A DNA stretch of 64,000 nt from Protoeuglena noctilucae (taxonomy: Eukaryota > Chlorophyta > Pedinophyceae > Marsupiomonadales > Marsupiomonadaceae), in assembly GCA_958009085.1 (NCBI GenBank), contig OY253685.1, positions 744,001-808,000 of the forward strand, given 5' to 3'. Below the pieces are notes generated by a model that made no database searches, was not told the origin of the DNA, and saw only the letters and a program-made list of their open reading frames with translations. Position numbers and translations under genes: made by a program. Positions 20,425 through 51,485 of the stretch are shown piece after piece. Numbering within the stretch: position 1 is the first letter of the stretch; the number at the start of each line of letters is the position of its first letter.

Positions 20425-21906
20425 AGTTCGTGCCGAGAAAGGACGAATGACCCTTGCGTGAGTCGGAGGCGGGGACACAAGGCCGCATGGTGCTGCACAA
20501 GAGGCTGTGCAGACGTGGCCAAGCAGACGACAGCTCGCGTGCAGAGGGCGGGCGGCACGAAGGGACGGGTTGGGCAAGAAGCCTTGTCGGCGTGCGCACA
20601 GGAAGAGCGCTGAGCGAAACGCCAGGCAACGGCACGGACCAGGGGCTGTGCAGAACTGGGAGCTTTGAAACACCCAGCCAGGCGACGCGCCTCGAAGGGG
20701 GCCATCGCGGAAGCGCAAGGACCGAGGCGTTTCATAAAGTACGAGAAATCTGTGAAACGAGCATGAGGGCCCCAGGCTGCAGGGGCCGCCCAAATTCGCC
20801 CGGGCAATGTCGCCAGCGCGTCACCTGACTTGTCGCCCAGGAGCAGTGCCACATAGTCGCTGTCCTCATCCAGATGGCGTGAGGGAGCCTTTACATCGCC
20901 CGACCGCCCTCCGCCGAACCCTTTTTGCCTCATGGTTGGCGGGGTGCGGGACCAGCTGCCTCCCTCGGCTCTCAGAAAACGTGCCGGGACTCTAGAGGGA
21001 CATGACGCGCTGAAAGAACAAATTTTGATCAAGAGGACCGCTTGCGACGGGCTGCTAGGCGCGGGGGGGGCCGATGTCAACGCGCTCGCGACGTCTCCGC
21101 TGCCTGGATCCCAATCGCAGCGACCGACTCGGACCCTGTGACAGGCCTGCAGGCTCTTCTCAGAGCGGCAGTGGAAGCAGCAGCAGCCTTGGCCAGCGCA
21201 CAGCCAGTGTCTGACGAAGGTGCGTCAGTGCTCCAGTGTGCCCCTGGGCGTCGCTTGGCCCCGTTCCTCCCGCGGACACGGCAGTTAAGCAGGTGCTAGG
21301 CACGAACCGTGGGCGGGAGGGCACCCGCGACAGTCTGCCCGCACGCAGGTGGGCTTTAAATGTGGCGCCGAGCATACGGCCGACCTCAGCGCCCCGAGAG
21401 CCTTGTGCTTCTCGTCTGCAATCCCATACTCTCCTCGCGAGCCGCGTGCCGACGTTTGGATGCGCTCACGCCGCGCATGAGTGACAAAACACGTCCATCC
21501 TTTGCTCACCACTCAGGGCTCGATGTCTACCCGCAGGGTTCCTGTAACAGCATCTTCTCGACTTGCAGCGAGCGCGTGACTTCCTGCGCATCGATTTTAG
21601 CGGGTGAGATGAGCAATGGGCTCGGTGGGTGTCTGCAGCTCGGCTGGTAGGGCGTGGTGTGGGCGCGACCCGCGTGCATTCATTGTCATTATGACATCGT
21701 TTTACGAATAGCCACTCAAGGCATCCTTCTGAGGATCGCCGGCTGCCACTGCGCGGGGTGACATGTGCGCGCCTCTTCCGGCGCCCTGAAAATTCGCGGC
21801 TTCCTGTTCTTGCCCCAAACTTATTCAAAGCTGTTGCTTGTATCTCCCCAGGTGGCCCGAAGAGGGTAGGAGGCGCTCCCGGCGCGGGGCGCCAGGCGTG
21901 GCGGGG
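20425..21906. other. 1.5-kb divergent intergenic region between PHD gene and CFAP65-like gene
   Basis: Both neighbours are transcribed away from this stretch, so it should contain two promoters and 5' UTRs. It has several ORF-length frames but none with a recognisable domain or consistent splice pattern. I see no tRNA, inverted repeat or transposase remnant. Confidence 0.4.
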
Positions 21907-24900
21907 ATGGTTGGACCCGGACTGCTCTCCACGGCGGACCATGGCCTGCGCACAACCAAGAAGGTCCTCATCGAGAATGCTATCGAGTACACGGACACGC
22001 TTGGGTACGTCATGGGCCGCTGCGCGCTCGCCGGGCGCGGCTGGCCAGATGCGTCACCGCGGCTCAACCTCTCGCGCGCCCCCGCCGCAGTTGGAAGAAG
22101 TGGCAGCCCGGCGCCGAGCACGTCAAGCACATCCTGGTGCGCAACATCTGCCCCGATGTCATCAAAATCAAGTATGGCCTTCCTTCGACCAAATACTTCC
22201 GCATGGACTTCCCCGAACCCATCAAGCTCTCCCCCGGTGCGTCGTTTGCGCCGGCTATTTCGTGTTGCACAGCAAACGCACCTAGATGATTTATCCTTGC
22301 TTGCAAATCCACGTCCCGGTCCCCATCGCGACCGCACAAGCGCCGCGCATGTCGACCCCGACCCCTTTCCCCGCGCAGGCATGTCCGCGAGCATCCCTGT
22401 GACCTTCTGCCCCACTCGCGCGATGCCGTACCAGGACCGCGTCACGTTCCAGTGGGCGCGCGGGGAATTCACCGTGTCGCTGCGTGGCCTGATGCCCGAG
22501 GTGGACCTGGAGGTCCCGCCGCTGGTGGACTTCGGCTATTCGCCGTGCCTCGAGCGCCGCTCGCACCGCGTCTCCATCCGCAACGTCGGCCGCGCGCCCG
22601 TCGACTTCGCCTGGACCGTCCCCGCGCCCTTCGCGGTCGAGCCGGCCCAGGGGTCGGTCCCGGTAAACTCTGAAGCAGTGCTCACGTGCTCCTTCCTGCC
22701 CACCTCCGCCTCCGTCTTCACCGCCTCCGCCGTCTGCAACATCACGGGCGGGCCCTCGATCACCATGCGCATGCAGGGCATCGGCAAATACGCCTTCTTG
22801 CGCCTCGATGCCGACCGCGTCAACTTCGGAGAGGTAAGGCACGGGGGGTATGATTGAGTCATCGACAGTGCTGGCCCTGCCGCATTCCCTCGCCTCCACA
22901 ACGCCCCTCAATGCCACCGCTCACAAGCGCGACAGTCTCCTCGACGCCCCCCGCCCTCCGCCCTCCCTCGCAGGTCCTCCCCAACTCCGTCGAAGAGCGC
23001 ATCGTGACCCTGCACAACCTGTCCGCCGTCGAGGCCAAATTCGAAGTCACCGGAGATGGCGATCCCGAACAGAGCCCCTTCGCCATCGTGCCCGCCTCCG
23101 CCACCATCCCGCCCTCCTCGTCCGCGCCCCTGCGGGTGAGACAACCCCGCGCTTTAGAGAGCGACAGCTGTGCTGATCCCGGTTCATTTGTGCGCATTGC
23201 ATCTGTGCTTCCCACCTCCTCAGCACCCACCTCGCTCCCAACCACGACCCCTGACCTGCCTGCCACCTACCCACCCTCATTTGCAGGTCAGATACAGCCC
23301 CACGACTGCGGACTCTGCCATCTCTGAGGTCTTTAGCGTCGTGGCCGTGGGGGGCAACACCCTCACGCTCACCGCCAAGGGGGCGTGCGTGGGGCCGGAG
23401 GTGTCGCTCTCCACGCAAATCCTCAACTTCGGATCCGTGCAAGGTGCGTGCGGTGCCAGTGCAACTGCGAACTTCGCAGCACAACGCTTGCCTTGCAGTC
23501 AAGCGCCGGCCGCACCTGTATCCGCACCCGCACCCGCACGCGCACCCACAGCCCACCCGCGCCCCCCACCCCCGTCGCTCCCGCAGCCGGCAAGCGCGCC
23601 AAGCGCGCCTTCATGATCTACAACCGTGCCCGCGTCGACGTGGCCTTCCAGTTCACCTGCGAGGGTGCCGGGGCGTTCGAACTCGACGCCGTCCGCGGCG
23701 TCCTCCCCGCCCTGGGTTCGACCCTCGTCAACGCGACTTTCACCCCGGAGGTCCCCGCGCAGTACCGCCGCCGTGTCTTCCTCCTCGTCATGAGCGCGTC
23801 GGAGGTCACGGCGCTCGACCTCATCGGAACGTGCTTCACGGCTGACCAGCACCCCGACCCGCTGCAGGAGTGGCACCTGCACCAGCACCCGCCGGCCATC
23901 GCGCCCACGCTGCCATCACAAGCGCTGCTGACGGGCGGGGACGCCGTGGAGGCCGCCACCCCGCGCGTCAGCCGGTGGGTGGGCGACGGGGGCGGCACGT
24001 TCGCGGCACCCACACTGGGGCCCGAGGGGTCGCCGCAGAGCACCCTGGCCGCCCGGCGCGCGACGCTGGGGTCCCCGGGCCAGGAGTCCGCGATGCTGCG
24101 CGAGGCGGTGGAGATGGCGGACATGGCGAGCCTTGCCGACTCGCGCCTGGGGTCGTGGGGTCAGATGCTCGCGCAGGCGCAGAGGGAGGGGCTCAGGGCA
24201 GGCGCCGGTGCCGCACAGGCCCCCGCGGCTGTGGACCGGTCGCCGTGGCGGGAGCTCTTCTCGATGACGCAACGCACCCCGGACGGTGGGCTGTCGGTGG
24301 ACGCGGGCGCGCTGGATTTTGGGGCTTGCTCTCGCCTTCGCCTGGCGCCCAACAAGACGGTCACGGTGACCAACCACACCAAGGAGCGCCTGGTGGTGCA
24401 CTGGGCCACCACGGCTGCTGAAGCCGACGTCGACCCTAAGGGTGAGAGCTACGCTGTGGTGCCATGTTGTGCTTGCCTACAACGCGCATCCCTCCCTCGC
24501 ACGACTGACTCTCGTGTTCAAATGTAATACCTGCCGTTGTACATTGTACACTACCACATATAAAGCTGACTCCCTCCTCCGCACGACTGTTGCATTCAAC
24601 CAAACCCACCCCTCGCACCGCCCCTCCGCAGGCCGCGTGTTCCCGGTCTTCCCCAACCAGGCCGAGGTGGGTCCTTCCCAGTCGGCCCAGTTCCGCGTGT
24701 CCTTCCGGCCCAAGAGGGACAACGCCTACTACGCGGCGCAGCTCGAGTGCTTCGCGGTGCGCAAGGCCGCCACGCACAGCTCCCTCGAGACCGGGCGTGC
24801 CAGGAACGCCGAGCAGCTGGCGGCGCAGCCCGTGCCGCTGCCGTGGGCGCTGGTCGTCGACGCCGTCGGGCACACGTTCCAGGGGGCGCAGGAGTCGCTG

Positions 24901-27900
24901 CCCATGGTGGCCATGTCAGCACAGCAGGTGAGAGGCACGAGGGGTGGGGGAGTCTGCACATGTCAGCAGGAGTTGCATGAGCTGGTCTCCTGCATGGCTT
25001 TTGTAAATGTGATAACGAATAACACCGCTTACGCTGTCATGCAGCCTGACTGTTCTGCTTCAAGCCCCGCCTCACCTCATTACACCTCTCGCCTCGTCAC
25101 GCCTCTGTTCCTCTGCCCCTCCCAGGTGGAGTTCCCGGCTGGCTACGTGGGGTCCTCCAGCAGCCAAGTCGTGTCCCTCTTCAACCAGGGGGCCACCCCG
25201 GTGACCTTTGAAGCCTCCGTGACGGCCGGCGCCGACGACGCGGGCATCGACGCTCCCTTCGCCGTGTACCCCTCCTGTGGGGTGGTGCCGCCCGCGTCCC
25301 GGCAGCTCTTGGCGCTGCGGTTCTCCGCTAAGGAAGCGAGGGTCTTTGCCGGGAAGCTCAAGGTGAGCAGCAAAGCGTGGTGGTCGCCTGGTCTCAGCAG
25401 CGACGGCGATCGCTCGCCCGCAGCTGCTGTGGCGTGCATCAGTTGCTGTCACCACAGGTGCTGCGACCATAGAAGTCACCGTGCCATGTATATAATACCG
25501 ACATGCCCACATGCGCACTCGCTGACCCCATCGCACACGCTTACTCGCTGACCCCTCTGCAGGTGCTGGTCAATGGCCACGGTGCGCAGTCGGTGGCGCT
25601 GCGGGGCGTCGGGTGCCGCCCGGCGCTGCGCCTGGGCGACTCCGGGACTCTGTTCTTAAAGCCCACGTGCGCGGGGGCGTCCTCGACGTGCCTCCTGCCG
25701 TGCCGCAACCCCACGCCCGTGCCCGTGGCCTTCCAATGGGAGATCCCCGAAGCCGCCAAGTCGCTGCTGCGGGTGTCCCCGGAGGCTGGGGTCATCCCTG
25801 GGGGCGAGTCGCTCTCTGTCGAGTGGACCTTCGCCCCACGAAAAGCCAAGGCGTACTCTCTGGCCGTCCCGGTGCACATGGGACCCCCCAACGGCTCCCA
25901 CTTCGCCGCCAGCCGCGGCGTGAGCGACGTCGCGGTGCTGCGGGTCGTGGGGGAGGGCACGGCGGGCGGGGTGGCCGTGACGAGCGGACCACTTCAGGCC
26001 GGGGTGGTGCGCATCGGGGACGTGGGGAAGGTCGCCGCCACGGTCGTCAACCAGTCCCAGGGGGTCCTGCAGTTCCTGCTAGTGCCCTACCGCGTGCGAC
26101 ACGACGGGACGGAGGAGATCGAGACGTCCGGGCAACTCACGCTGCCCCAGCCTCGGGGCACCCTGGCGGCCCTCACCGAACACAAGGCAAGTGCCGTGCA
26201 GGGAGGACGATGCTAAGGGACGGTCGGGCATCTGTTATTCGATTTCCTCGAACAAAGAGTGGCAGCAAATACCGTGACACAGTACCATATCGAGAGTGCT
26301 CGATGCGCAGGTCTACCCTTGCACCATGCGCCTGGAAGTGCCCTCGCTTCACGCTTCGCCGCTTTTTCCTGACTTCCCACGATGTTTGTCCGCAGATCCC
26401 CGTGGACTTCGCCCCGCGTCGTCGCGCGCTGTTCCATTTCCGCGTCAAGGTCTTTGCGATGGGCGGGGGGAGCGCCTCCGCAGCCCCGCTTGTGCCCGAG
26501 GCGATTGATCCAGCGGACCCCACGGGCCTGGGCCTGCCCTGCGCGGCGCAGTTCGACGTCATGGGCTCTGGGCAGCACCCGATGCTCCAGATCGTGGACG
26601 TCGCCAGCAGCCTCCAGAAGAGCGTCGTGTGGGACATGTCACAGGCTGCCGAGATCAACCAGGTGAATGCGCGACTGCGGGACGGTGCGCACTTTCCATT
26701 CACTGCTCAATCTCTCTCGTTTTCCCACCACCCTGCCCCTCACTCACCCACCCCTCGCCGCCCCCACCCATCCCCTGTCACCCTGTGTTTCTCTCACCCG
26801 CCCACCCCCATCCCACCTGCCCCACCCATTCCAACCCCAGGCGTTTGGCGCGGCCATGACCATCGACGAGCTCCACCGCGTCGAGGCCCTGGCCATGGGC
26901 AAGACATCCGTCACCGACGTCATGCGGCAGCTCACGCCCATCCCGGTCGACCTCCCCTGCGGCGCGCCGGGCGCCGAGGACGCCGTGCTGCACCTCTTGC
27001 TGCGGAACGTGTCGGACTTGGACGCCGACTGGAGCATCTCCCTGCCCAACGAGACCGACCTCGACATGGAGTCATGGGTATTGCCTCGCTTCCCTCCCGA
27101 CGCCGTGGCGCAGATGGAGCACCTGTTCGAGGTGCACCCGCGGTCCGGCAAGGTCGCGCCGGGTGCCGAGCAGCAAGTCACGCTGCGCTTCCGGCACGAA
27201 GCCCCCGCCGTGCACCGCCTCCCGCTCCTCATGTACATCGCGCACGGCAAGTGCCTGTCCCTGGAGATCGTCGGCCGCACCCTGGAGCCGGACGCCGCGC
27301 TGATGGCTTCCGGCGACGTGCACCACGAGCTCGTGGCCGTCGAGGTCGGCCGCCCCGAGCCGCCCCTCCAGACCGTCACGCTCTACAACCGCGGGCCCGC
27401 ACCCGTGCAGTTCGAGCTCGACACGGCCGCTTTACAGGACCTCCGCGCCGCCTGCTGGGACTTCGAGGTGCTCAAGCTCCTGTCGCCATCCCAAGGGACC
27501 ATCCCTGCCAGGGGCCACCTGGTCACGTGGTGGAGCTTTTCGCCCCTCGAGGCCAAGGAGTACGCGGTCACTGTCCCGGTGCGCGTGGACGGGGAGCCGT
27601 CGCACAACCTGGTGGTGACGGCACGCGGCGTGGCACCCACGCACGTGCCGGGGAGATGGGACGCGATGGCGGAGGCGGAGGGGCTGATTGCGGGGCACCG
27701 ACCGCCGCCGGGGTCCCTGGGACTGCTGTCCGGCGAAGTGGACCCGTTCAGTGGGAGGGGCGCAGAGGCCGATGCGCCCATGCCCAGTGGCGATGCGGCG
27801 GGGGACACAGGGCGGTCGCGGGCGGCGGGGCCGAGCGCGGGGGCGGAGGCGAGCGCGGCGGGCTCGCCGGGGGCGGCACGGGAGCGGGAGCGGGAGCGGG

Positions 27901-30046
27901 AGTCGGGCCCTGCGGAGATGCCGCGCGCGCTTTTGCGGACGGCCACAGCGCGGCCGGGCACCAAGGACGGTCTGAGGGGCCCCGAGACGCTGGGCCTGGA
28001 CGAGCGGACGGGCGAGAACATGGGCAGCGTGGACCTGCCGCTGTTCGCACGCCTGCGTGACCGGGCATCGCACGTGGCCCTGAGCCAGGATGTGCTGGAC
28101 ATGGGCAGCGTGGCGTGCGCCGAGACGCGGTGCAGCGTGCTGGTGAGGGCGGGGGGCAGATGGTGGCGGAATGCGCGGGGGGGCTTTGACTGCGATGGCG
28201 AGCTTTGCGGGGGGCTGAGGAGGGCTGGGACGTGCAAATGCGGTCATTTGGATGGGGCACCGTTCATCGGGGTACTGATCGCACCCAACCGTCGCTCACC
28301 TCCCTTGGCGCCCGCAGCTCGTGCACAACCGCCACGCGCACCCCATTCGATTCAAGTGGGCCCTCGGGGACTACGAAAAGGCCAAGGGGCGGGACGCTGG
28401 GCACTTTGGTGAGTCCTGGACAGGCAGCGGTAGGGGTGCACGGTCAGACATGCTTGGTGCCAGGGTGCTAATCGGCGGCACTAGAAACGATGCCGCGCAT
28501 TGGCTCACTCTGCCCTGCTCTGACTCTCTCACACAGCCGCACCCCAACTCTCTCGCTCTGCCTTGCCCTAAGTGACTCTCACTCCCCCATACACCCTCTG
28601 CAGACGGGTCTCTGTCGATTGAACCCATGGAGGGCGCCCTGAAGCCCGGCGAGCGTTGCCTGGTAAAATTCGAGGTCCGAGGCGGTGGCCGCGCCGTGCT
28701 CTTCGACGGATGCGTGGTGCTGACGACTGAGGAGCAACAGGACTCGGTATCACCGCGTGACGTGGCGCGGTGGACCATGGAGCGCACCCAGGGCGGCAGG
28801 GCGGTGGCCGAGGAGGCGGCCAAGGCGCTGCGGATGAGGCCGGGAGTCACGGGTGAGCGCACGCGGCGAGTTAGGGTGCAAGCGGGGCTTGCGATGGACC
28901 GGATCGTGTTCTCAGCAGGTACTACTGAGAACTACCCATCGCCTTGGCCGCAGGGTTCGTGGCCAATGAGCTGTCTCTGGACGCCATCACTTCGGTCGAC
29001 AGCGCCAACAACGAGTTGGACCTGAATGCCATCCAAAAGCACCGGGAGCGGCAGCAGCAGCAGGCGCCACCGCCGCCCCAGGTGCGCGTCCCTTCTTCAA
29101 CGTCACAACATCGAAGGCAACGTGCTTCTATTAGTAAATGTAATTGTTGAAAACTTCGTTCTTGCAGGTCCGGCCTCTGAGAGTGATTGGGGAGGTGCAC
29201 ACGGGGGAGCCATTGCTGCCGCACCTGGCGGTCTTGCGGAGGCTGGCCGTGCGAGAGATGGAGGAGGCCAGGAGGTGAGAGAAAGGAAGAGAGAGAGGGG
29301 CTTATTGAGTGCTCATCTACATACGTCGTACGCAAGTCATGTTGGGGCTGCCACAGTCCCTGCCAAAGTGCCAGCCCTACCTACCCAATTGCCTCTAAGG
29401 TTTCATCTCTCTTTATGCTAACCCGCGTCCACTCATGCGCGTGCCTTTAACCACCCCCGCAGGTCCCTGTGGGGCGGCCGCGACCCCGAGCAGGCCACCG
29501 GTGCGGACGACGACGGAATGATGGCGTCGATCGTGGGGAGCGTGCTCGAATCCGCACTCGAGGCCCTCGCCTGCGACCCGACCGTCTTCGTCGCCGCGCT
29601 CGTCCCGCAGCCGGACATCCCCGCGCGGCAAGCCGGCCGCCGCAACGCAATGCCTGCGTCGGTGGAGGCGGGGGTGGGCGACGAGGAGGCACGGCGGGCA
29701 CTGGCGGAGGCGGAGGGTCGAGTGGTGGACTTGGAGGCGGAGATGTTCGCCGAGTACCTGCTCGAGAGCGCCATCTTCAGGTGCGGGTTGTGCAGGGATT
29801 GGAAGGGGTTAAGCATTGCACGGGGCAGTCGTGGGGTGGCACTCTGCACCACACTGCTGTGCCATATGCGCCTTAATGATATGTTCATGACCCATCCGTA
29901 CACGACATCGATATGTATGTCCCTTTCCTGGCCCCCGCAGTGTGCTGCAAGAGTCCGTGGCCCCCGCAGCGCAGAGGGCCGCTGCGCACGCCACATCCAC
30001 GTTTGAGCCATTCCGGCCATCTCTGGTGAAGCCGGGCGGTTTTTGA
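21907..30046 (+). CDS. CFAP65: CFAP65-like multi-ASH/MSP-domain cilia/flagella protein
   Basis: Seventeen exons: 21907-22004, 22091-22236, 22379-22833, 22974-23135, 23287-23443, 23587-24441, 24632-24927, 25126-25362, 25563-26186, 26396-26662, 26841-28142, 28318-28408, 28604-28852, 28954-29081, 29168-29274, 29463-29780, 29941-30046. They total 5,598 nt, exactly 1,865 codons plus stop, close to the roughly 1,900 residues of animal CFAP65 (CCDC108). The N-terminal block WKKWQPGAEHVKHILVRN, then GLPSTKYFRMDFPEPIKLSP and ASIPVTFCPTRAMPYQDRV, is the family's opening module. Many immunoglobulin-like ASH/MSP repeats follow, recognisable by ...VDFG / NVGRAPVDFAW / FAVEP..G.VP patterns. A short Gln run and helical segments (DLEAEMFAEYLLES) close the protein. 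CFAP65 works in the ciliary central apparatus or axoneme assembly. The intron after 26186 has a GC donor (AAG|GCAAGT). The alternative is another ASH-repeat protein such as a HYDIN relative, but order and length favour CFAP65. Confidence 0.82.
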
Positions 30047-36300: not shown

Positions 36301-39300
36301 CACCGCCTCGGAAAAGGCTTGCGCGAGCGCCCTGGCCCCCGGGAGCCCCCCTGGCCACCCCCGCTGTCTCCACACCACCCTGCCACGCCGCGCCCGCGCT
36401 CCCCGCCGCCCTGGCCCCGCGGGGGTCCGAGGCAGCGAAGGCAGAGGACCTCCCCGAGGACATCTTGACGCTCGCGTCCCTACTGGGCTGCCGAGAGTGC
36501 CGTATCGATGCGCCCGGTCCCGGCGTGGCGGCCAGGGAGGGGACTTGCGGCGTGGCGAGGGCCTCTGCGGCCAGGTCTGACACGAGGGCGCCCATTCCGA
36601 CGGACGACACGCTGCGGCGCGCCACGAGGTCTCCGCGGCGGGAGTTGCCGGCGGAGGGAGACCGCGAGGGGTACCGCATGCCCAGACGCATCGCCTGCAC
36701 TACAGCGTCGTAGCTGCCGGGGCCGCCCTGCTGGAGCGTCCTGAGAGACCGCGAGGCGTCGCGCGTGAGCATCGACACGCCGCCGTCCGCCTCGTGCATG
36801 CTGCTGGACAGGCTGGCGCGGGATGCCGTCACGTCCGTCCGGTCCCCCGCCCCCACGCCCTCCGCTGCCGTCCCATCCCGGGCCGCCTGAGTCGCGGCGC
36901 GCACCACGGCGAGGAATTTGCTTCCCTGCGACCGCTGGCTGTTCGTGCGGGCCAGCGCCAGGCCTGGGAAGGCGCTCGTCGACCGCGCCAGGAAGGGCAT
37001 AGGGGCGCGGGTCGTGGTGTTGTTCCACGTGGGCAGGTCCCTGCCGTCCACGTCCGGGCCCTGGGAGCCGGGGGCAGCGACGCCGTCCAGCATGTTCTGC
37101 GGAGGTGGTTGCGATTGGGATGGGTGTGCGTGGGCATCCTGGTGCAGGTGTGTTGGTGCATGTTGTTGGAGCAGTCACCACGTGGGGGGCGTTCATCGCA
37201 GCATTTCAGGCAATCGTCGTGCAGTTTCCTCACCTGCGCCATCTGCCGCATGAGCAGTCCCTGCCAGCGGTTGGGCAGCTCCGAGTCCTGGCGTTTCATG
37301 GCATCCTCGACCCGAGTCAGGACCGACTGGGGGATGCGGCGGCTGGCGGAGAGACCCCGCAGCTCCGTCATCATGTTGCGCAGAGCAGTGTCGCGGACTT
37401 GCAGCAGCATCTCCGCCATGCGGGCCTGCGGGAAGACGCAAGCGGGGTTGCGGGTAAGACAAGTAGACACGTTGTGAGCCACTCTCAGCAGCTCTCACAG
37501 GTCCTATCGACAACAACAACTATCACAAGCCCACTCAATTAGCATCGCACTCATCCAACACTTTCCCACCCCCCTCCCACTCGCCTTCTTCTCCAGCCGA
37601 TCGATCGCCTCGACGTGCTCCTTCTTCATCCGCTCAATCTCCGCCCTCAGGCCCTCCAGTTCCTTCGTCAACGCCTCCTCGCTCTTGCCGGACATGCCCT
37701 TCCCCTCGGACTTGTAGTGCAGGCGCACGAGCGTGGCCCACAGCACGTCCGCCCCAAACGCCTCCAGGTCGGGGATCGTGCCGTCCCTCATGCCGTCATT
37801 CTCCAAAAACTGTTCCAAATTTTTCATCTTGAGCCGGAACTCCTCGGAGCCCATCATCTCGGCCAAGTTACGCTTGGGCTTGTTCTTGATGGCCGCAGCA
37901 CGGACGGCGTACTTGAGGGTGTTGAGTGACTCGTCGGTGTTGACGTCGGCGCATGACACGCAGGCGATGAAGAGCGTGCGGGAGGAGCCACCCAGGCTGT
38001 CCTGGAGCACGCGGGTCAGCTTCGAGTCCCTGTGGGGGAGCAGGAGGGGCAGGGGGATGTGGGAGCGACGGTCGTGGAGAGCGCGAGCGAGGTGTCTGCA
38101 AGTCGTGTGGACCGACAGGGAGCGCCAAGGCAGCGGTCAGGCCCGAGCATGTACAACAGAGCTTGCACAGCGTTGTAGCACTCGCCGGTAAGGCACATGG
38201 GACGCTTTCTTGGAGGAGAGGGCCTCGATGACGGCCCCGAGCACCAGCAGCCCCTTGTTGATGTTGATGCCCTCCTTGGCGCGCGCCCCAGTGGCGTTGG
38301 TGCGCTTGATGCGCTCGGATCCGGCCAGGTCGACCAAGTGCAGTTTGGACTCGGTGACGGTACCCTTGAGGACCAGGCGGACGATGACGGTGAAGATCGC
38401 GTGGGAGCGCGACGAGTGCACGTTCAGGTTCGTGCTCCCCACCGTCCGCGCGCGGAGACCGTTCTCGAACGCCGCCATCATGTCGGGCAACGAGTCCGCC
38501 TGCGGGCGCGGGGCTCGCAAAACGCCGCTCCAGGTGCTATGGTCAATCAGCGGCGTGTCCGCCAACCGGCAGCCAGCCGGCTGCGACGTGGGGCCCTTGC
38601 GGCCCAGTGCACGGCCGCTCCCCGCATCCTCGCCTTCGTCTCGAGCACTCCGTGCAGCACGACGCTCCCCTGCTCCTCGCGCATCGTGATGGGGGCCCTG
38701 GGCCGGGGCCCCTCCAGCGCCACCGCCAGCAGGTCCCGGAACTCCTCGTTGTAGATCTCCACGAAGGTGCAGGAGAGCGACAGGCTGTCGAACTTGTCCG
38801 GAATCGGCTCCGCCTTGCACCTGAACAGCTCCATGACCACGCGGGGCAGGATGCCCAGGTCCTGGGGCGGCACCTCCCCGATGACCTGGCCCGTGCCCAT
38901 CGTGTACGTCTTCCCGGACCCGGACTGCCCGTACGCCAGGATCGTCGCGTTGTAGCCCTCCAGCACCGCGTCCATCATCGGCCGAACACAGTCGTCGTAC
39001 AACGCGCTCTGCTTGGACGCCGGGCCGTACACGCCGCTGAAGCTGAACTTGCGCGTCGCGCTGCGCTGCGTGACCACGACCTGCGTGTTCCCCGTCGTCG
39101 TCACCGTCATCATCGACCCGCCCTGGGCGCAGTGGGATGGGCAGATGTGGCTCGGGGCGAGGACGTCGCAGCTGTGCCGCAAGCGCGCTCGGCAGCCGTG
39201 CGACGCGGCTGAGGAACGCCCGTGCACGCTCGGGAGGGACTCACCGCGATCTCGTACTGGATGAGCGGCCTCACGCGGCAGATGACCTGCACGCGCGTGC

Positions 39301-40582: not shown

Positions 40583-43500
40583 ATGAAGCGCGGCGCAGTC
40601 AAGAACATGGTGTTGTGGTGTGCGAGAGTGACTCGAGATGCGTCAGAGTCGCTGCCGGCGTCGGCTCAAGCCCGGCACACGTCGCACCAGTTCGCGAGCT
40701 CAACGGGCGAGGCAGATGCGTGGAGAGGGGGGTCCTCAGCTGCCCTCCTATCGCGCTCGCTCCGATGCGATCCTTACTTTCGCATCAGGACCGCTGCGCA
40801 CGTGCGCCGTCAGTGGTGCGCTGCGGCAGTCGGCGTCCGGTCCTTTTCCAGCACCGGGCCAGCCCAGCCCCAGCAGGGATCGAACTCGGATGCGAAGAAG
40901 GGAACCCGGCCCGCGGAGTCCGTCGCGGCTGACCCCAGCGCCCTGTGGACCTCCCCCGTCGACGCGGTGGGGGAGCGTGAGATCGTGGCCACGCTGGGGC
41001 GCTACCTGTGGCCCCACGAGGACGTCACGGGCACCAAGCCGCGAGTCGTTGGGGCCCTGGGACTCCTCGTCGGGTCCAAGGTGAGAAGGTGGCAGCTGGC
41101 AGCTGCGTGACCCACACTCACAACCGTCGCAGCGGTGGCATCCTTGACTCTCCCTCAAGCGTGCGGGCGGTGCCTTTTTCGCAGTTGGTGGGCGTCGCGG
41201 TCCCGTTCCTCTTCAAGTGGGCCGTCGACTGCCTGACTGGGGTGGGCATGGCCGATGCCCCCGCCATGGTCATCGGCCTCACGCCAGTCGGACTCATGGT
41301 CGGCTACGGGCTGGCCAGGGCCGCACAGGTGACCGCAGCGCCCACGTTTGTACCGCTGGGCATTCACAGCACCTCCACCTAAGCTGTCAGAGGGCCGATG
41401 TGCATGTCGCTTGCTGCCCTGGACGCATGACGCCCCTTGTCCTCACACCCACCTGACCCGCTCGCCTATCCCTTCGCTCGCCGCAGAGCGCGCTCAACGA
41501 GGGCCGCAACGCCCTGTTCGCCGCCGTGACCCAGCGCATCATCCGCCGCGTGTCGACCGAGTCGTTCCAGCACCTCCACTCCCTTGACCTCTCCTTCCAC
41601 CTCAGCCGCCGCACGGGGATGCTATCCAAGGCCGTCGACCGTGGCACCCGCGGAATCTCTTTCCTCCTCGGTGCCATGGTCTTCAACGTGGTCCCTACCG
41701 CCTTCGAGGTCTCTCTCGTCGCCACCATCCTCGCCATCAAGGTGCGGGGCTGTGTGGAGGAGTGGGGTGCTGACGTCATGGCGAACGTGGCGCATTTCTC
41801 TCGACTCTAGACACGGTTCTCTCACTCCCGGCGCATCACAGTGCGGACCGGCATTCGCTGCGCTGACTGCCGCGACCATCGGGGGGTATACCTGGTACAC
41901 GTTCGCGCTCACATCCTGGCGCACCAAGATCCGCCGGGAGATGAACCGATTCGACAACGAGGCGTCGGCTCGATCCGTGGACTCTCTGGTCAACTACGAG
42001 ACGGTCAAGTACTTTGGCAACGAGCGGCACGAGCTGAACAGGCGCGTGGGTCATGCGGGGCAGCGGGATGCGTACTTGCTTTGACAGACGGCCTGAGACG
42101 TGGTGGGAAGGGAATATGCTAGTAGGAGCAAGATGATTGATGATAGAACACAGCTCGTGGCTCTCTGCAGGTACGATGAGTCGTTGGCGGGGTACGAGCG
42201 GGGGGCGGTCAAGACGCAGCACTCGCTGGCCCTCCTCAACTTTGGCCAGCAGGCCATCTTCACGGCGGCTGTGACGGCCGCGATGGTCGGGGTCACGGGG
42301 GGCATCCAGGCCGGCGAGCTCACAGGCGAGGCACAGCGGCACGCGATGTTGCCACGTTACGTACTCCTCCCTTCAGGCCACTCTCTTACGGGCACGAGCA
42401 TGTGCAGCTCTCCAGCCAGCACTGTGGCCTTTCGCGCGATCTGCCGAGATGCATGCCCGTGAGCGTGTCACATGCTCTCACCTGGCCATCGACCCCCGCC
42501 GTGCTCTCAGTGGGTGACTTGGTCATGGTCAACACGCTGCTCCTGCAGCTGGCCATGCCGCTGCACTTCCTCGGCACCGTGTACCGGGAAACCAAGCAGA
42601 GCCTCACCGACATGGGCCACCTGTTTGCCATATTCAAACTCAAGCCCGCCGTGCAAGGTGCCACCACGCCTCTCTGCACTCCATGCGTCCCGATTCGGGA
42701 TCGCCGCCGGTCCTCTCGCAATACTGCTAGCATTTCACGCTGCAATACGCCATGCTTAGCTTCAAGAAGGCATGCCAGCGACGCTGGCCACGGGTCGCTT
42801 TTGTGCCGCAGACGCCGCTGACGCCGTCGACCTGATTCCCTCCCCCGGAGCCCACGGTTTGTCCCTCACGCTTTGCGACGTGCATTTCGGCTACCGTTCC
42901 GACCGCCCGACGCTCCAGGGTGTTGATATTCACGTTCCTGCTGGCACCAGCTGTGCTCTGGTGGGCACGAGCGGGAGTGGCAAATCCTCTGTGCTCCGCC
43001 TCCTCTTCCGCTTCTTCGATGCCGACCAGGGAGCCGTCCTGATCGACGGGCACGACGTCAGGTGACACCTGACCGCCCCGTGCATGCGCATCATGAGACG
43101 CATGCCGCACATCACGACTCATGTCTCTGCTGTCAGGAGAGACGGCCAGGTCTTGTAACTCAGTTCACATGCCGAGTGACTAACTGCGCGCCTCTGCGAC
43201 CCACATCACGCAGGGGACTCAAAGCCGAGTCCTTCCGCCGGCGTATGGCGGTCGTGCCGCAGGACATCGTCTTGTTCAATGACACCATCTTCTATAATAT
43301 CCACTACGGCAACATGGAGGCGACGGAAGAGGACGTCTACCGCGCCGCACGGTGAGAAGCCCGCTGTGCGTCCAACACCCACACTTGCCAACCCCCGACC
43401 TACCGACCCTCCCGTGTGCGCCGACCGCCCCCACCCATCCCCATCCCGTAATCCACTGTCTCTGCGGTCGCTTAGTGAGTGGGCCCATCACGTGCATGAC

Positions 43501-44237
43501 CGTTGGCCCTCTTCCCGCGTTCCCCAGGATGGCCGACATTCACGATCGGATCCTGTCAATGCCGGACGGCTACGCGACCGTCGTGGGCGAGAGGGGCCTC
43601 AAGCTGAGCGGGGGCGAGAAGCAGCGCGTGTCTCTCGCGCGTGCCTTCTTGAAGGACCCGGATGTGCTCCTGTGCGACGAAGCGACGTCGTCGCTCGACA
43701 CGCGGACCGAGCGGTGCATCATGGATCGCCTGCTGGACCGCCCCGGGGCCGCACAACGCACCACCGTGTTTGTCGCACATCGGCTGTCGACCGCGGCCAG
43801 GTGAGGGCGGGCAGGGCGCTCACCCTGTGCATCCCAGGTGTGTCACCATGGTACTCGTGCGCTCTGCAGCACTGGACACTCGCTTGTGCCTGGACGCTTT
43901 GTGCAAAATGACAATGCCAGCGCGTCACGCACCACATTGTCCATTCGTCCCCACACCTGGCTTCCCTCCCCGCAGATGCGACCAGATCATCGTGCTGGAG
44001 AACGGGCGTGTGGCTGAGTCAGGGTCGCACTTTGAGCTGTTGGCGCGAGGGGGGCGGTACGCGGAGTTGTGGGCTAAGCAAGCGCATGTGGATGATCTCG
44101 ACTCCTTGGAAGGCGGTGGTGGCAAGGCAGCGCAGGGGAGCGGTGGGGCAGGGGCCGGGAGCAATGGTGGAACAGGGGCGGGGACCAACGGGCATGGCGA
44201 GGGCGAGGGTGCGAGTTTGGGTGAGAGGATAGCCTAG
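40583..44237 (+). CDS. ABCB7: Mitochondrial ABC half-transporter of the ATM/ABCB7 family
   Basis: Exons 40583-41080, 41185-41328, 41487-41741, 41842-42041, 42171-42325, 42511-42657, 42812-43061, 43214-43351, 43528-43800 and 43976-44237 give 773 residues. The first roughly 100 residues are Arg/Ser/Ala-rich with few acids, as in a mitochondrial presequence. The membrane domain carries family blocks [28 protein letters not shown] and [14 protein letters not shown]. The nucleotide-binding domain has Walker [10 protein letters not shown] (about 518), signature LSGGEKQ (about 621), Walker B VLLCDE (about 642) and the H-loop AHRLST (His about 680). ATM/ABCB7 exports a glutathione-linked sulphur species from the matrix that the cytosolic Fe-S assembly machinery needs. 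Introns after 42041 and 42325 have GC donors. The junctions are fixed by the family sequences HELN-RYDES and [11 protein letters not shown]. The C-terminus ends in a Gly-rich tail. Confidence 0.93.
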
Positions 44238-46012: not shown

Positions 46013-48875
46013 ATGATATCGTTTGCCACGCGGAGGGGCTGTTTGCAGCCCGACACCCAGCGATCGAACGGGCCGCGGGTCTCGGAAGTCACAGAAACAT
46101 GGCCGCAGCTCGCCGGGGCGGACCGCTTCTCGGAGTGGCTGACAATAACATTGCAATTTACCTATGAGATCTGTCCATCAAGAGGGAAGCCGGAACCGTT
46201 GACCGCTCTGCTTCTATATCTGCAGCAATCCCTGCCCTGGACGCCATCCCAGGCACTACGTCCTGCCCGATGGCATGCCACGGCATCCTCGAGATATCGA
46301 GCGCGTTTGGCCGTGGCGCGGGCCGTGTCCTTCCCCTCTCGGCGCGCCGAACCCCTCGCCCCTGCGGACGCGGTGTCCCACCCTCTGCGCGACACGGAGG
46401 GCGCCTTCCCCGTCGCCAAGCATCCAGCCAAGCGCGTCTCTTCCCTGGCTTTCACGCGCGGGCTCCGGATCCTCTTCTTCGTCGAAGCACATAACGGGAT
46501 GTCCCAGGCAAGGCGCGCACATTTGCCCTCGCGGCCAGTGTCTTTCAATCACCCTTCTTGATTTGACTCTTCTGCTTCTCCCTCCCGCAGCGCCTGAAGC
46601 TCGAGGCCGAGCGCATGGGCCACCGCGTGCACGTGGAGCTGGCCCTGTCCGCCGATTCGATGCTGCACGCCTACGACGTCTACGCACCGGACCTGGTCGT
46701 GTGTCCCATCCTCAAGCGCCCGGTCCCCGAGGCCATCTGGGAGGCCACGGCCACGCCCGTGTGGATCGTGCACCCTGGGGTGGCGGGCGACCGTGGGCCC
46801 CACAGCATCGACTGGTGCGTGACGCGCAAGGACGCACGGTGGGGCGTCACGGTCCTCGAGGCCAGCGCAGAGATGGACGCGGGGCACGTCTGGGCCACCG
46901 AGGACTTTGACGTGCCCCCCGATGCGACCAAGTCGTACATCTACCGGTGCCTCGCCGTCCCGGCCGCCGCCCGGTGCCTCGCGAGGGCACTGCGGGCGCT
47001 CGAGTCCGGCGCAAGACCCACCCCGCAGCACCCCGGCATGCCCGGCACCCTCCGCCCTTCGATGGACTCACGCCGCGACCGCTCCGTCGATTGGGCCGCG
47101 CCCGCCATCGACGTCTGCCGGGTGGTGCGCGCCTCGGACAGCGCTCCGGGGGCCCGGTGCGTCCTCGGCGCCCCCCACGCACCCGACGCAGAGTACTTCG
47201 CCTACGGGGCCATCGTGGAGTCGGCGCCTCCCGCCGGCCTCTTGGCAGCCGTGCGCCCCGGGGACCTCCTGGCCCAGCGTGACGGCGCCGTGCTGGTGGC
47301 GGCGGGGGACGGCACGGCTTTGTGGCTCTCGCATTTGCGGCGGCCCAAGGCCCCCGGGGACACCGCGCGCCACATCAAGCTCAAGGCGACGGCTGTGCTG
47401 CCGCCCGCGGTCGCTGCTTCGCTGCCCACCCTCCCGGCACCCCCCCTGCGCGTGGAGCCGTTCGGGGCCCGCCCCGCGACGTGGCAGGAGGCGTGGTACG
47501 GCGTCAGCCCGGGCGGCGCGGCGGTGGTGCGGTGGGAGGTGCAGGGCGGGGCGTTCGGCCCCTCGCAGTGCGCCGGCATCCGCGAGGCCATCACCGCGGC
47601 GGTGGCGGACCCGGACACCCAGGTGCTGGTGCTGGCGGGGTCCCCGCAGGCCTTCAGCAACGGCATCGACCTGAACGGCGTGATGGCGAGCGCAGACCCC
47701 CCCTCGGCGGCGTGGGATGCCATCACGTCCATCAACGACCTCGTACGCGACATCTTCTCGGTCTCGCGCGTGCCGGTCGTGTCGGCCCTGGCGGGCGGCG
47801 CGGGGGCGGGCGGGGTCATGACGGCGCTCGCGGCCGACGCCGTGTGGGCGCATGGCGACGTGGTGCTGAATCCCCACTACCGCACCATGGGGCTGACGGG
47901 GTCCGAGTACTGGACCTACTTCCTGCCCCGCAAGTGCGGCGTGGCCATGGCCAGCGCCCTCACAGACGCGGCGCAGGTGAGGGGTAGTTGCAGGGGCTGG
48001 TTGGAGCTGGATGGCGTGGGCATGAGAGGGAGCGCAGCGGGGCTCGCTGGGTCCCTGATGCGTGCCGTCGCGTCTCTCAGACTTTGAGCGTCTGCATGGG
48101 CGGCGTGATGCGCTGGAAACCCTTACCCTTTGCGTCGTCCTCGCAGCCGATTCTGGCACCTGATGCGGCTGCCGTCCGTTTGGTGGACGCCGTGCTGACG
48201 CCGTCCCTGCCGGGCTTCATGGAAGAGGTCGTGCGGCGGGCCGAGGCGATGGCCGCGGGGCCCGAGGGCGCAGTTGTGGTTGCCAACAAGCGCGCGGTCC
48301 GCACCCCCGCATGGCACGCGAGCGTGGAGGAGCTGCGGGAGCAGGAGCTGGTGGCCATGCGGAGGTGAGAGTGGATGGGTGCTGATATGACTCCTGGTGC
48401 GACCGTCTTGGTGTGGCCTGGCGACGGCCTGGGTCGTCTCTTGCTTCTCTGACAGCCGTCGCTCGTGCTGACTGCTGCTGTTGGGAGCATGTCACAGCTG
48501 CATGCCTACCAATCCTGTCGCGTACCGTCACCCATCATGGTTACCCTCTCTGGTGCCGTCCTTCTCAGGTGCTTCTCTTCTGCTGTGTTCCTGGAGGCCG
48601 CCGACCGCTTCGTCCACAAGCACGCCGCCGACGCCACGCCCGACCACATCAACAGCGACCTGGCTGCGAGGCTGAGGGACCTCATCGCAAGGGCCAAGGA
48701 GCGCGCATCTGTCGCAGCGTCGCACGTGCGGCCCGTGTCCGTGACCCTGTCCTCTTCGGTTGAGTCTGACTGGGAGACGGTGCCAGAGTCCGACGCCATC
48801 GCCGGGGCCTTCGCGGCCGGGGCGGCGGTGCCGGGGGCCATGGCGGGGCCCTTCGAGGCGCCGCAGGACGCCTGA
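46013..48875 (+). CDS. hypX: HypX/HoxX-like formyltransferase-crotonase fusion protein
   Basis: Exons 46013-46507, 46591-47976, 48147-48364 and 48569-48875 give 801 residues. Residues 1 to about 148 are Arg/Ala/Ser-rich and unlike bacterial HypX, possibly an organelle-targeting leader. The N10-formyl-THF transferase-like half begins at LRILFFVEAHNGMSQ and includes VVCPILKRPVPEAIW, HPGVAGDRGPHSIDW (His about 226) and EMDAGHVW. The C-terminal half is an enoyl-CoA hydratase (crotonase) fold with FSNGIDLNGVMAS, ALAGGAGAGGVMTALAAD, NPHYRTMG (Tyr about 595) and GSEYWTYFLPRKCG (Glu about 604). I believe this Tyr/Glu pair corresponds to the residues assigned as catalytic in bacterial HypX, where formyl-CoA is made and split to CO for the [NiFe]-hydrogenase active site in air. 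About 90 residues follow the usual bacterial end. The first intron has a GC donor (CAG|GCAAGG). The start ATG is the only one in frame upstream, but an extra 5' exon is possible. Confidence 0.88.
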
Positions 48876-49718: not shown

Positions 49719-51485
49719 TCACGCCAGCTCCTCGGGAGGCGGCACCTCGGCGTCTTCCAGTTCCGGCAGCGGGAACCGCAGCACGGCCGCCAGCCCTGTA
49801 ATCCTTCCCAGCTGCTCACCCGACGGGTGGGCGGCCGACAACACGTGCACCTCGCCCCCCGACCCCTGCACTTCATCCAAGAGCGCAAGGTACCTCCGCC
49901 GCGCCGGCACCGTCCGCGCGCGCAGCACTGCGTCGGATATCAGCAGCGTCTGCACGGCGCCCATCTCCGCCGCCGCAAACACATGACCGGGGCCGTAGAA
50001 GGCCCGGGACGGGTCGCGGGACATCATGTCGAAGAATCCCTGCAAGGCGCGTGCCTCCCGGGCCGCCTTGGTGTCCGCGATGCGCTGCTGCACGGTCGGG
50101 TCCCCCATCACCTCCTTCAGCGCCGGCTTGTAGCTACTGGACGCGTGCACTGCGAGGGCCGGGTCGCGGCAGGCGCTGTCCTTTCCGAAGCAACAAGACA
50201 TGGAAGCAAAGTAAAAGCAACCAAGCAAGCGTAACTCCCGGGCCCGGAGAGGCCTACCACTGGGGCCAATGCCAGCCACCGACAGCCACCGCCACCGTGC
50301 CTTACCAGCCACGATGCGCGATCGGTTGTCCATGAGAGCGCGCTGGTTCGACCGCACGCTCTCCTCGTCGATGTACTTGCGGAGCTGGTCCTTGGTGAAC
50401 CCCGGACCCGCCAGGACCAGGCACTTGACTGCAAGCGCAGGTCACGAGGTGCGGCAGCTCAGTACAAAGCACATTGCAGTGAAGAGTCACGCAGCAAGTC
50501 TCATCTGCTCACTCTCCATGCCCTGCACCGTGTACATTTTCACCGACTGGCTTTCGTTGCTTTGCCCTCCACACCGCCAGCAACCGGCACCCGCCACCCG
50601 CACGCATGCCTCACCGACCTCCCAGTTGACGTTACGCACGATCGCCTGGTAGCACGACTCCAGGAACTTGGTGAAGGCTTTCTCGAATCCCGCCGACGCC
50701 GCGCCCGTCTTGCGCGGCAGGTTGGCCTCGATCCTCGCTTTTTGCACCGTCACGCTGCCCCCGATGAGCTGCAGCACAGCGCGCCCCTCCTCGACCATCA
50801 TGACGGCCAAGTCGGCTGAGAGCTCCGGCGACGACGCGGCCTCGAGTCGCTTGCGGTCCAGAGCGTCCCACTGGTCCTGCATTTTAGCACCAGACGTGCG
50901 AGGTCGGCTGGGCGTCGCAAGCGCCTAAGCAGAGACCGGCGCTGGGTGCAAAGCAAGAGTCTGGGTCGAGCGGGGCGGGCGTCGGGACATCAGACGTCAT
51001 CCATCTCACACCTTGTGGATGCCCAGCGTCTTGAGCATGTCGACCGTCAGCGTGTGGTGGGCGCCCAGCTTGACGGCCTCGCACTCTGTGAGGTTGGCTC
51101 CGCCGAATCGAATCTCCTCCGCCTCCATGTCGTAGTCCACCGTGTCCACTCGAATCTGAAGCCGCACCTTGACCTTCTCAGATGCCCTGGAAGCCAGCGA
51201 GAGTCACGCCATCTTACAATAACTATGTTTGTAGCCAACGCCGCGGTGGCATTCGCACGACATCGTTATCGTCGCGACGGAAAGCGCCCCAGAACGCCGC
51301 AGCACGCACCGCCCGCTCCGAATCATGCCCTCGCGGTCGTCGTGCACTTTGCGGAACGTGGTGCCCTCGACGACGTCCCCTGGTCGCACGACATTGTAAA
51401 TCTCCCAAAGATCCTCAGCCGCGTTGATGAAGACGACCACCAGGCCGGAGCCATCGGCCTCGAAGTGGCGCTTCCTGATCTGCAT
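49719..51485 (-). CDS. PELO: Pelota (Dom34) ribosome-rescue factor
   Basis: Exons 51310-51485, 51012-51186, 50615-50876, 50306-50428 and 49719-50149 give 388 residues, against about 385 in animals. The N-terminus MQIRKRHFEADGSG aligns with the Pelota start, followed by LWEIYNVVRPGDVVEGTTFR and VRLQIRVDTVDYDMEAEEIR of the Sm-like domain 1. Domain 2 has LAVMMVEEGRAVLQLIGG and VNWEVVKCLVLAGPGFTKDQ. Domain 3 has YKPALKEVMGDPTVQQRIAD and SGEQLGRITGLAAVLRFPLP. No GGQ motif is present, as expected for Pelota and unlike eRF1. Pelota with Hbs1 enters the empty A site of stalled ribosomes and starts no-go and non-stop decay. All introns are GT-AG. A small transmembrane ORF ends 12 nt before the start codon on the same strand. 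Confidence 0.95.

Follow-up and report, generated by a model that had tools for sequence, protein, structure and literature searches.

Bacterial HypX/HoxX, described from Aquifex aeolicus (6J0P) and Cupriavidus necator, supplies the CO with which [NiFe]-hydrogenases are matured in air. A review states, in the part available, that the bacterial enzyme converts 10-formyl-THF to formyl-CoA and then to CO (PMC12134894). For the Aquifex enzyme, the available portion of Muraki et al. 2019 (PMC6802093) proposes that formyl transfer depends on His74, Asp80, and Asp109, and decarbonylation on Tyr416 and Glu426. The same portion of PMC6802093 indicates that the triad Ser of 10-formyl-THF dehydrogenase, PurU, and Fmt is an Asp in HypX (Asp232 in the protein described here). 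What these three enzymes and our HypX have in common is a formyltransferase half with its catalytic His and Asp positions; the crotonase half fused to it sets HypX apart.

The window analysed here is a 64,000-nucleotide stretch of DNA from the green alga Protoeuglena noctilucae (contig OY253685.1, positions 744,001 to 808,000). Its plus strand carries a hypX gene at 46013-48875, which in the spliced model has four exons and encodes 801 amino acids with no internal stops. The features of the gene, including the residues aligned with the five catalytic positions, are as follows.

46013..46507, plus strand: exon 1 as modelled (spliced gene model)
46508..46590, plus strand: intron 1, GC-AG, 83 bp; the alignment with Aquifex HypX stays in frame across it
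46591..47976, plus strand: exon 2, with the larger part of the formyltransferase half and the crotonase core; its ORF is also protein match P0001 (spliced model, Pfam, protein search)
46771..46773, plus strand: His226, aligned with Aquifex His74 (formyl transfer, a role proposed in the available part of PMC6802093)
46789..46791, plus strand: Asp232, aligned with Aquifex Asp80
46876..46878, plus strand: Asp261, aligned with Aquifex Asp109 (proposed base)
47878..47880, plus strand: Tyr595, aligned with Aquifex Tyr416 (proposed decarbonylation)
47905..47907, plus strand: Glu604, aligned with Aquifex Glu426 (proposed decarbonylation)
47977..48146, plus strand: intron 2, GT-AG, 170 bp; the splice site restored the HypX frame
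48147..48364, plus strand: exon 3, end of the crotonase half (model and Aquifex HypX alignment)
48365..48568, plus strand: intron 3, GT-AG, 204 bp (spliced model)
48569..48875, plus strand: exon 4, a CF...FVHK tail common to P0003, then a variable C-terminus and the stop (model against the P0003 sequence)

Pfam found Formyl_trans_N (E 7.4e-7), Formyl_trans_C (9.3e-8), and ECH_1 (5.1e-20) in this order on the window protein, all above cut-off; no NCBIfam model passed its cut-off for P0001 among the matches listed. The best PDB match was Aquifex HypX 6j0p (E 7.6e-81), a single match over residues 150-703. After the HypX entries, the best single-domain enoyl-CoA hydratase reached 9.8e-14, and FDH was no better than 9.8e-14. 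An AlphaFold2 model was made of P0001 (490 residues, covering window residues 174-627 and, by read-through into intron 2, 36 more, without modelled residues 1-173 and exons 3-4) and had a pLDDT of 87.7 and a pTM of 0.87. In Foldseek, the first eight matches of this model were all HypX, aligned across both halves (TM by query 0.83-0.84), and the other 42 matches listed were ArnA, FDH, Fmt, and crotonase-type proteins, mostly matched through one half. Identity with Aquifex HypX in the structural match was 33%. Judged by these matches, the window gene encodes a HypX homologue, with the two-domain order, fold, and five catalytic residues of the bacterial enzyme. Its placement with HypX rather than with lone enoyl-CoA hydratases is given by the PDB score gap; the two trees described below (140 and 51 rows) contain HypX only. 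The sequence-only reading had reported both HypX halves in order with the motifs HPG..GDRGP.S.DW and NPHY...GSEYWTY, and both motifs were found again; the active-site pair, whose loss on structural alignment it had named as a refutation, is kept as Tyr595 and Glu604.

The 5′ end of the gene is less clear. HypX similarity begins at residue 150 (46460) in the PDB alignment, and modelled residues 1-99 (to 46309) are covered by neither Pfam nor PDB matches. Their GC3 is 0.52-0.76 compared with 0.88-0.96 in exon 2, while residues ~100-165 of exon 1 are more coding-like. The first 30 modelled residues hold four Arg/Lys and three Asp/Glu. Residues 1-99 are therefore doubtful as coding sequence, and, considering the low GC3, the lack of matches, and the leader composition, the gene may begin at a different position. 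The long new N-terminus claimed from the letters alone is thus weakly founded. Exon 4 is similar to the C-terminus of P0003 by sequence comparison.

The residues were followed in an alignment of 225 rows, comprising 223 search matches, Aquifex, and the window protein (whose exon 2 is also match P0001). Equivalents of His74, Asp80, Tyr416, and Glu426 were identical in 225/225 rows and that of Asp109 in 223/225. The Tyr-Glu spacing is 9 in the window protein, in the named eukaryotic homologues, and in many bacteria, and 10 in Aquifex. The CoA contacts are less uniform. Asn306, which contacts the CoA 3′-phosphate in Aquifex, is Gly in the window protein/P0001, P0002, and P0003, and also in eight other matches, four of them named Streptomyces. 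Gln15, Arg131, and Ser194 are kept in the window protein, Arg9 and Gln195 are both Ala, and Arg542 lies outside the alignment; the positions of Arg9, Arg131, and Gln195 also vary widely across the 225 rows. The YNGAM motif is altered in the sub-clade of the window protein with P0002 and P0003. Because of Asn306Gly, Gln195Ala, Arg9Ala, and the altered YNGAM motif, CoA handling may differ in this HypX. The changes at Asn306 and YNGAM could even indicate that the fold has been reused for a different catalysis, with formyl-CoA as donor or another acyl-CoA reaction. However, the five catalytic residues are unchanged among proteins that are only 46-53% identical, and we consider such a change of chemistry improbable.

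Homologues were found well beyond the alga. The first protein search gave 933 matches and a search with a eukaryotic profile 3273, of which 120 each were listed. The named animals among the matches listed were Branchiostoma (several), Oculina, Montipora, Nematostella, Hypsibius exemplaris, and Bradysia coprophila. The matches listed also included the rotifers Rotaria and Adineta along with Didymodactylos; Chara braunii, the moss Ceratodon purpureus, and the liverwort Calypogeia fissa; and, among brown algae and the like, Ascophyllum nodosum and Chrysoparadoxa australica. The HypX-bearing groups are, in other words, amphioxus, corals, a tardigrade, a gnat, rotifers, a moss, a liverwort, Chara, and brown algae. 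The closest to the window protein among the matches listed were P0002 (49%) and P0003 (46%). A third search, for more green-algal homologues, returned these two, the window ORF, and six others, none of them closer. Since only 7988 candidates were scored in it, a sporadic distribution in green algae is a guess. No fungus appeared among the named minority of the matches listed in the three protein searches; of the fungal and algal homologues that the sequence-only reading had proposed for a phylogeny, the algal ones could be placed, on the eukaryotic side. One scan of viral_contigs for a viral HypX gave 34 pattern matches, none of them a relative.

The 140-row tree has a branch (SH-aLRT 100) with all 99 rows called bacterial, namely 80 GTDB loci, Aquifex, and 18 protein rows, on one side. 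The 41 rows on the other side consist of 21 eukaryotes by source (16 named, four from EukProt, and the window) and 20 called eukaryotic by position. The 51-row bootstrap tree gave the same eukaryotic-bacterial split with 100/100, and it was found in 200/200 bootstrap trees. The window protein groups with P0003 and P0002 (100/100) and then with Ascophyllum and P0016 (99/97), whereas the deep branches among eukaryotic HypX have weak support. As the tree is unrooted, the eukaryotic rows form a single clade only with a root on the bacterial side, and transfer between bacteria and eukaryotes may have gone either way. By its tree side, the window gene is a member of a eukaryotic HypX group and is not peculiar to this alga; the sequence-only reading, of a HypX homologue in a green alga, was incomplete in this respect. 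The proteins named "hydrogenase maturation factor HoxX(-like)" at NCBI (Branchiostoma, Oculina, Montipora, Nematostella, Bradysia, and Hypsibius) share the tree side, catalytic residues, and spacing of the window protein, and this naming looks like automatic annotation. Literature searches gave nothing on eukaryotic HypX among the matches listed, and the available part of a paper on eukaryotic hydrogenase maturation factors (PMC9161772) contains neither HypX nor HoxX.

In contrast to bacterial hypX, the window gene is nuclear, has introns, and falls on the eukaryotic side of the tree. The genes adjoining it are represented by exons of CFAP65, a kinesin, an eRF1/Pelota-like protein, and an ABC transporter. 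That its best-scoring relatives of known structure are bacterial might suggest a contaminant or an assembly chimera, which the sequence-only reading had itself named as a possible refutation of its claim to a native nuclear gene with three introns. However, the introns, the GC3, the eukaryotic neighbours, and a tree position inside the eukaryotic side speak against it, and several of the named animal and plant copies are carried on contigs of 13-53 Mb. The introns and neighbouring eukaryotic genes make contamination so unlikely that we reject it as practically negligible, and the gene is taken as native.

FolD makes 10-formyl-THF. HypX-FolD fusions are present in Rotaria, Adineta, Ascophyllum, Chrysoparadoxa, two EukProt proteins, and several other proteins; P0012, for example, has HypX at 12-588 followed by MTHFD/FolD at 595-886, and the same domain order occurs in P0122 and P0016. 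A separate bacterial clade, including the Chloroflexi MAG L029, is also fused, while the window protein is without FolD. On the tree, the fusion label needs three changes among eukaryotes, so that an ancestral fusion with losses and several gains are both possible. Because FolD supplies the presumed substrate of HypX, the fusion speaks for the same substrate, 10-formyl-THF, in eukaryotes.

Many eukaryotic relatives carry basic, leader-like extensions, although a leader is not clear in the modelled N-terminus of the window protein. Leaders of at least 19 residues were present in 32/41 eukaryotic-side rows; in 27 of the 32, the first 30 residues contain one Asp/Glu or none. The other nine of the 41 have a short or no leader, some of them being truncated. 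In the 18 bacterial protein rows, the HypX core is preceded by 0-3 residues; the extensions of locus-derived bacterial ORFs do not count here, as these were read stop to stop.

A search of the algal genome gave no match for HypD, the member of HypA-F that was covered, and no match for the [NiFe]-hydrogenase large subunit, in line with the initial claim of a HypX with no known [NiFe]-hydrogenase. An [FeFe]-hydrogenase, the type that the sequence-only reading gave for green algae, was found as well: C19 of the algal genome carries an [FeFe]-hydrogenase with TSCCP, MPC, and CPGGC motifs, and HydG-like exons (single exons, below the whole-protein cut-off) lie ~2 kb from it. A second PF02906 locus on C10 is presumably Nar1, judging from its motifs. 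The presence of an [FeFe]-hydrogenase raises the possibility that HypX feeds CO to its H-cluster. HydG, however, is the known CO source for this cluster, and the adjoining HydG-like exons, though single and below the whole-protein cut-off, make such a supply unlikely. Furthermore, animals and land plants retain HypX although they are not known to have [FeFe]-type hydrogenases. Altogether, we regard this role as highly improbable.

By best NCBIfam score of single exons, the Formyl_trans_N family in this genome consists of HypX, one PurN, and one Fmt; the PurU model matched the PurN and Fmt places only, below cut-off. This makes it plausible in this alga that HypX replaces PurU, the 10-formyl-THF deformylase, and drains formyl-THF to free THF, with CO or formate as exhaust. 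Formate would arise if formyl-CoA were hydrolysed. PurU is needed for photorespiration in Arabidopsis, and in photosynthetic cells such a drain would serve the glycine decarboxylase/SHMT cycle. FolD fusions would, besides, shorten the path from methylene-THF. Against this, the drain would leave unexplained why all aligned copies retain the crotonase half and its Tyr/Glu pair, as well as the bacterial MHYT neighbours described below; animals do not photorespire; and a divergent PurU could be missed because the genome was searched exon by exon. On balance, the folate drain appears rather unlikely.

To see hypX in its bacterial settings, the best 80 of at least 576 hypX loci from a GTDB scan were kept. 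For 50 of these 80 loci, the 49 genomes concerned were searched for HypD, with a match in 36/49 and none in 13/49. In a second set, 22/398 genomes of one phylum, the centre genome included, carry HypX, and a HypD match was absent in 8/23 genomes (21 other second-set genomes and two first-set genomes). Two of those eight (G284 and G326) are small assemblies whose HypX neighbours, by eye, resemble hydrogenase-type loci, and therefore these two may only be incomplete. HypD or NiFe-large motifs were found within 9 kb in 41/80 loci, some contigs being shorter than the 9 kb flanks; the genome of L090, one of the 41, has no HypD, and the motif at this locus is likely to be coincidental. Since some bacterial HypX genomes are thus also without a HypD match, we treat hydrogenase company as a functional setting and not as a family trait.

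A protein with an MHYT domain is encoded near hypX in 8/80 loci, all eight confirmed by Pfam and spanning Bacillota, Actinomycetota, and Gammaproteobacteria.

L018, Peribacillus: MHYT-PAS-GGDEF-EAL protein, ~55 bp from hypX, consecutive on one strand
L071, Aliikangiella: MHYT near hypX, one gene between
L043, Cellvibrionaceae: MHYT tens of bp from hypX, consecutive on one strand
L036, Methylococcaceae: MHYT histidine kinase, ~1 kb from hypX
L093, Streptomyces: MHYT near hypX
L046, L056, and L078, Nocardia: MHYT near hypX

No hydrogenase motif was found at these eight loci within the locus DNA scanned, and a HypD match was absent in four of the eight genomes. The chance expectation was 0.16 (~45 MHYT genes, 43 genomes), giving a Poisson P of ~7e-12, a value that ignores kinship (three of the eight are Nocardia) and the choice of genomes. 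When the neighbours of 12 of the 13 HypD-free loci (L067 was left out) were read by eye, none was common to different genera except MHYT; the ORF calling behind this reading was crude and went wrong at several GC-rich loci. MHYT was seen in this reading at L018 and L071, and at L078 only in the separate MHYT scan. A general HypX-MHYT link was rejected, as it is absent in 72/80 loci and in the second set (22 HypX genomes, 1.5 kb flanks), where the only MHYT neighbour is in the centre genome, which is that of L071.

According to the available part of PMC11347149, the MHYT domain of CoxC senses CO through copper, and O2 competes with CO at this domain. No paper with both HypX and MHYT was found in the literature searched. 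These neighbours raise the idea that the HypX of eukaryotes and of some bacteria is a source of CO for sensing, separate from heme oxygenase. The eight loci, four of them in genomes without a HypD match, the consecutive hypX and MHYT genes of L018 and L043, and the CO response of the CoxC domain (PMC11347149, available part) are in its favour. However, competition by O2 means that other gases may be sensed (same part of PMC11347149), a gene lies between the two at L071 and ~1 kb at L036, and most loci are without the link. The algal genome, moreover, gave no MHYT match, so no CO receptor is known in the alga. A signalling purpose is thus a possibility that we hold tentatively. It and the folate drain divide the reading that we prefer and do not exclude it.

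That preferred reading, which we consider probable, is that the window HypX is an organellar, [NiFe]-hydrogenase-independent enzyme converting 10-formyl-THF to formyl-CoA and then to CO. Its direct basis is homology, domain order, catalytic residues, predicted fold, the HypD and [NiFe] results in the alga, and the side taken in the unrooted tree. From these we infer the catalysis, CO as product, the location, and the purpose of eukaryotic HypX. The formyltransferase half would move the formyl group of 10-formyl-THF onto bound CoA, formyl-CoA would swing into the crotonase half, and Tyr595/Glu604 would decarbonylate it to CO, regenerating CoA and THF. The enzyme would work inside an organelle, which in the majority of lineages is most likely the mitochondrion, and its purpose would be a CO signal and/or the release of THF from 10-formyl-THF. 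The conserved residues would also fit formyl-CoA or formate as product. Still, the bacterial route to CO appears the most economical reading, and the FolD fusions together with some bacterial MHYT neighbours point to folate-derived CO. The three roles proposed at the outset, namely a CO signal, formyl-CoA handling, and formyl-THF disposal, thus remain the right candidates.

A wider proposal is conceivable, though we lean against it as a whole: lineages from green and brown algae to corals, amphioxus, tardigrades, and mosses may share an ancestral organellar enzyme turning folate C1 units into CO, fused with FolD in several of them, as a second, heme-independent CO source, whose bacterial counterpart would be a HypX-MHYT module for CO signalling. 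The CO that animals and plants produce themselves is generally ascribed to heme oxygenase. If true, conserved HypX would give these lineages a heme-independent supply of CO linked to folate metabolism and would no longer be only the "hydrogenase factor" of its name. The named carriers Nematostella, Branchiostoma, and Ceratodon make the CO question directly testable, and with the bacterial HypX-MHYT pairs the idea of CO as an internal signal can be put to the test. Many eukaryotes may make CO from folate for a purpose other than hydrogenase assembly.

The four-exon hypX gene (46013-48875, + strand) lies among the following features of the window:

21790-28412, + strand, exons of a CFAP65-like cilia/flagella protein with several Ig_CFAP65 domains
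38137-39240, - strand, kinesin motor domain exon
43298-44237, + strand, end part of an ABC transporter gene, upstream of hypX
49719-50924, - strand, Pelota-like gene on the opposite strand, downstream of hypX (eRF1_3 domain; eRF1_2 slightly below the cut-off)

The ABC transporter presumably resembles the mitochondrial ATM/ABCB7 types. Besides HypX, an exon-by-exon search of the alga's own genome for formyltransferases gave PurN and Fmt only, and no match to the formyl-THF deformylase PurU was found there. Elsewhere in this genome, about 2 kb separates an [FeFe]-hydrogenase from HydG-like exons (contig C19, 245098-250994).

In our tree, bacterial proteins joining HypX to the methylene-THF dehydrogenase-cyclohydrolase FolD formed a clade (locus L029 and relatives P0032, P0058, P0086, P0185, and P0202) apart from the eukaryotic HypX-FolD fusions. 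Two more fusion proteins, P0192 and P0196, carry Gly in place of Asp109 (Aquifex numbering), the proposed base in formyl transfer. The stop-to-stop frames holding HypX were unusually long in L070, L081, and L117 (921, 973, and 1074 codons, respectively) and possibly represent other fusions.

Among the best 80 of at least 576 bacterial hypX loci, genes for MHYT, the domain sensing CO in CoxC, were located close to hypX in L018, L071, L043, L036, L093, L046, L056, and L078. The hypX gene and the neighboring MHYT gene may constitute a CO-making and CO-sensing pair in bacteria.
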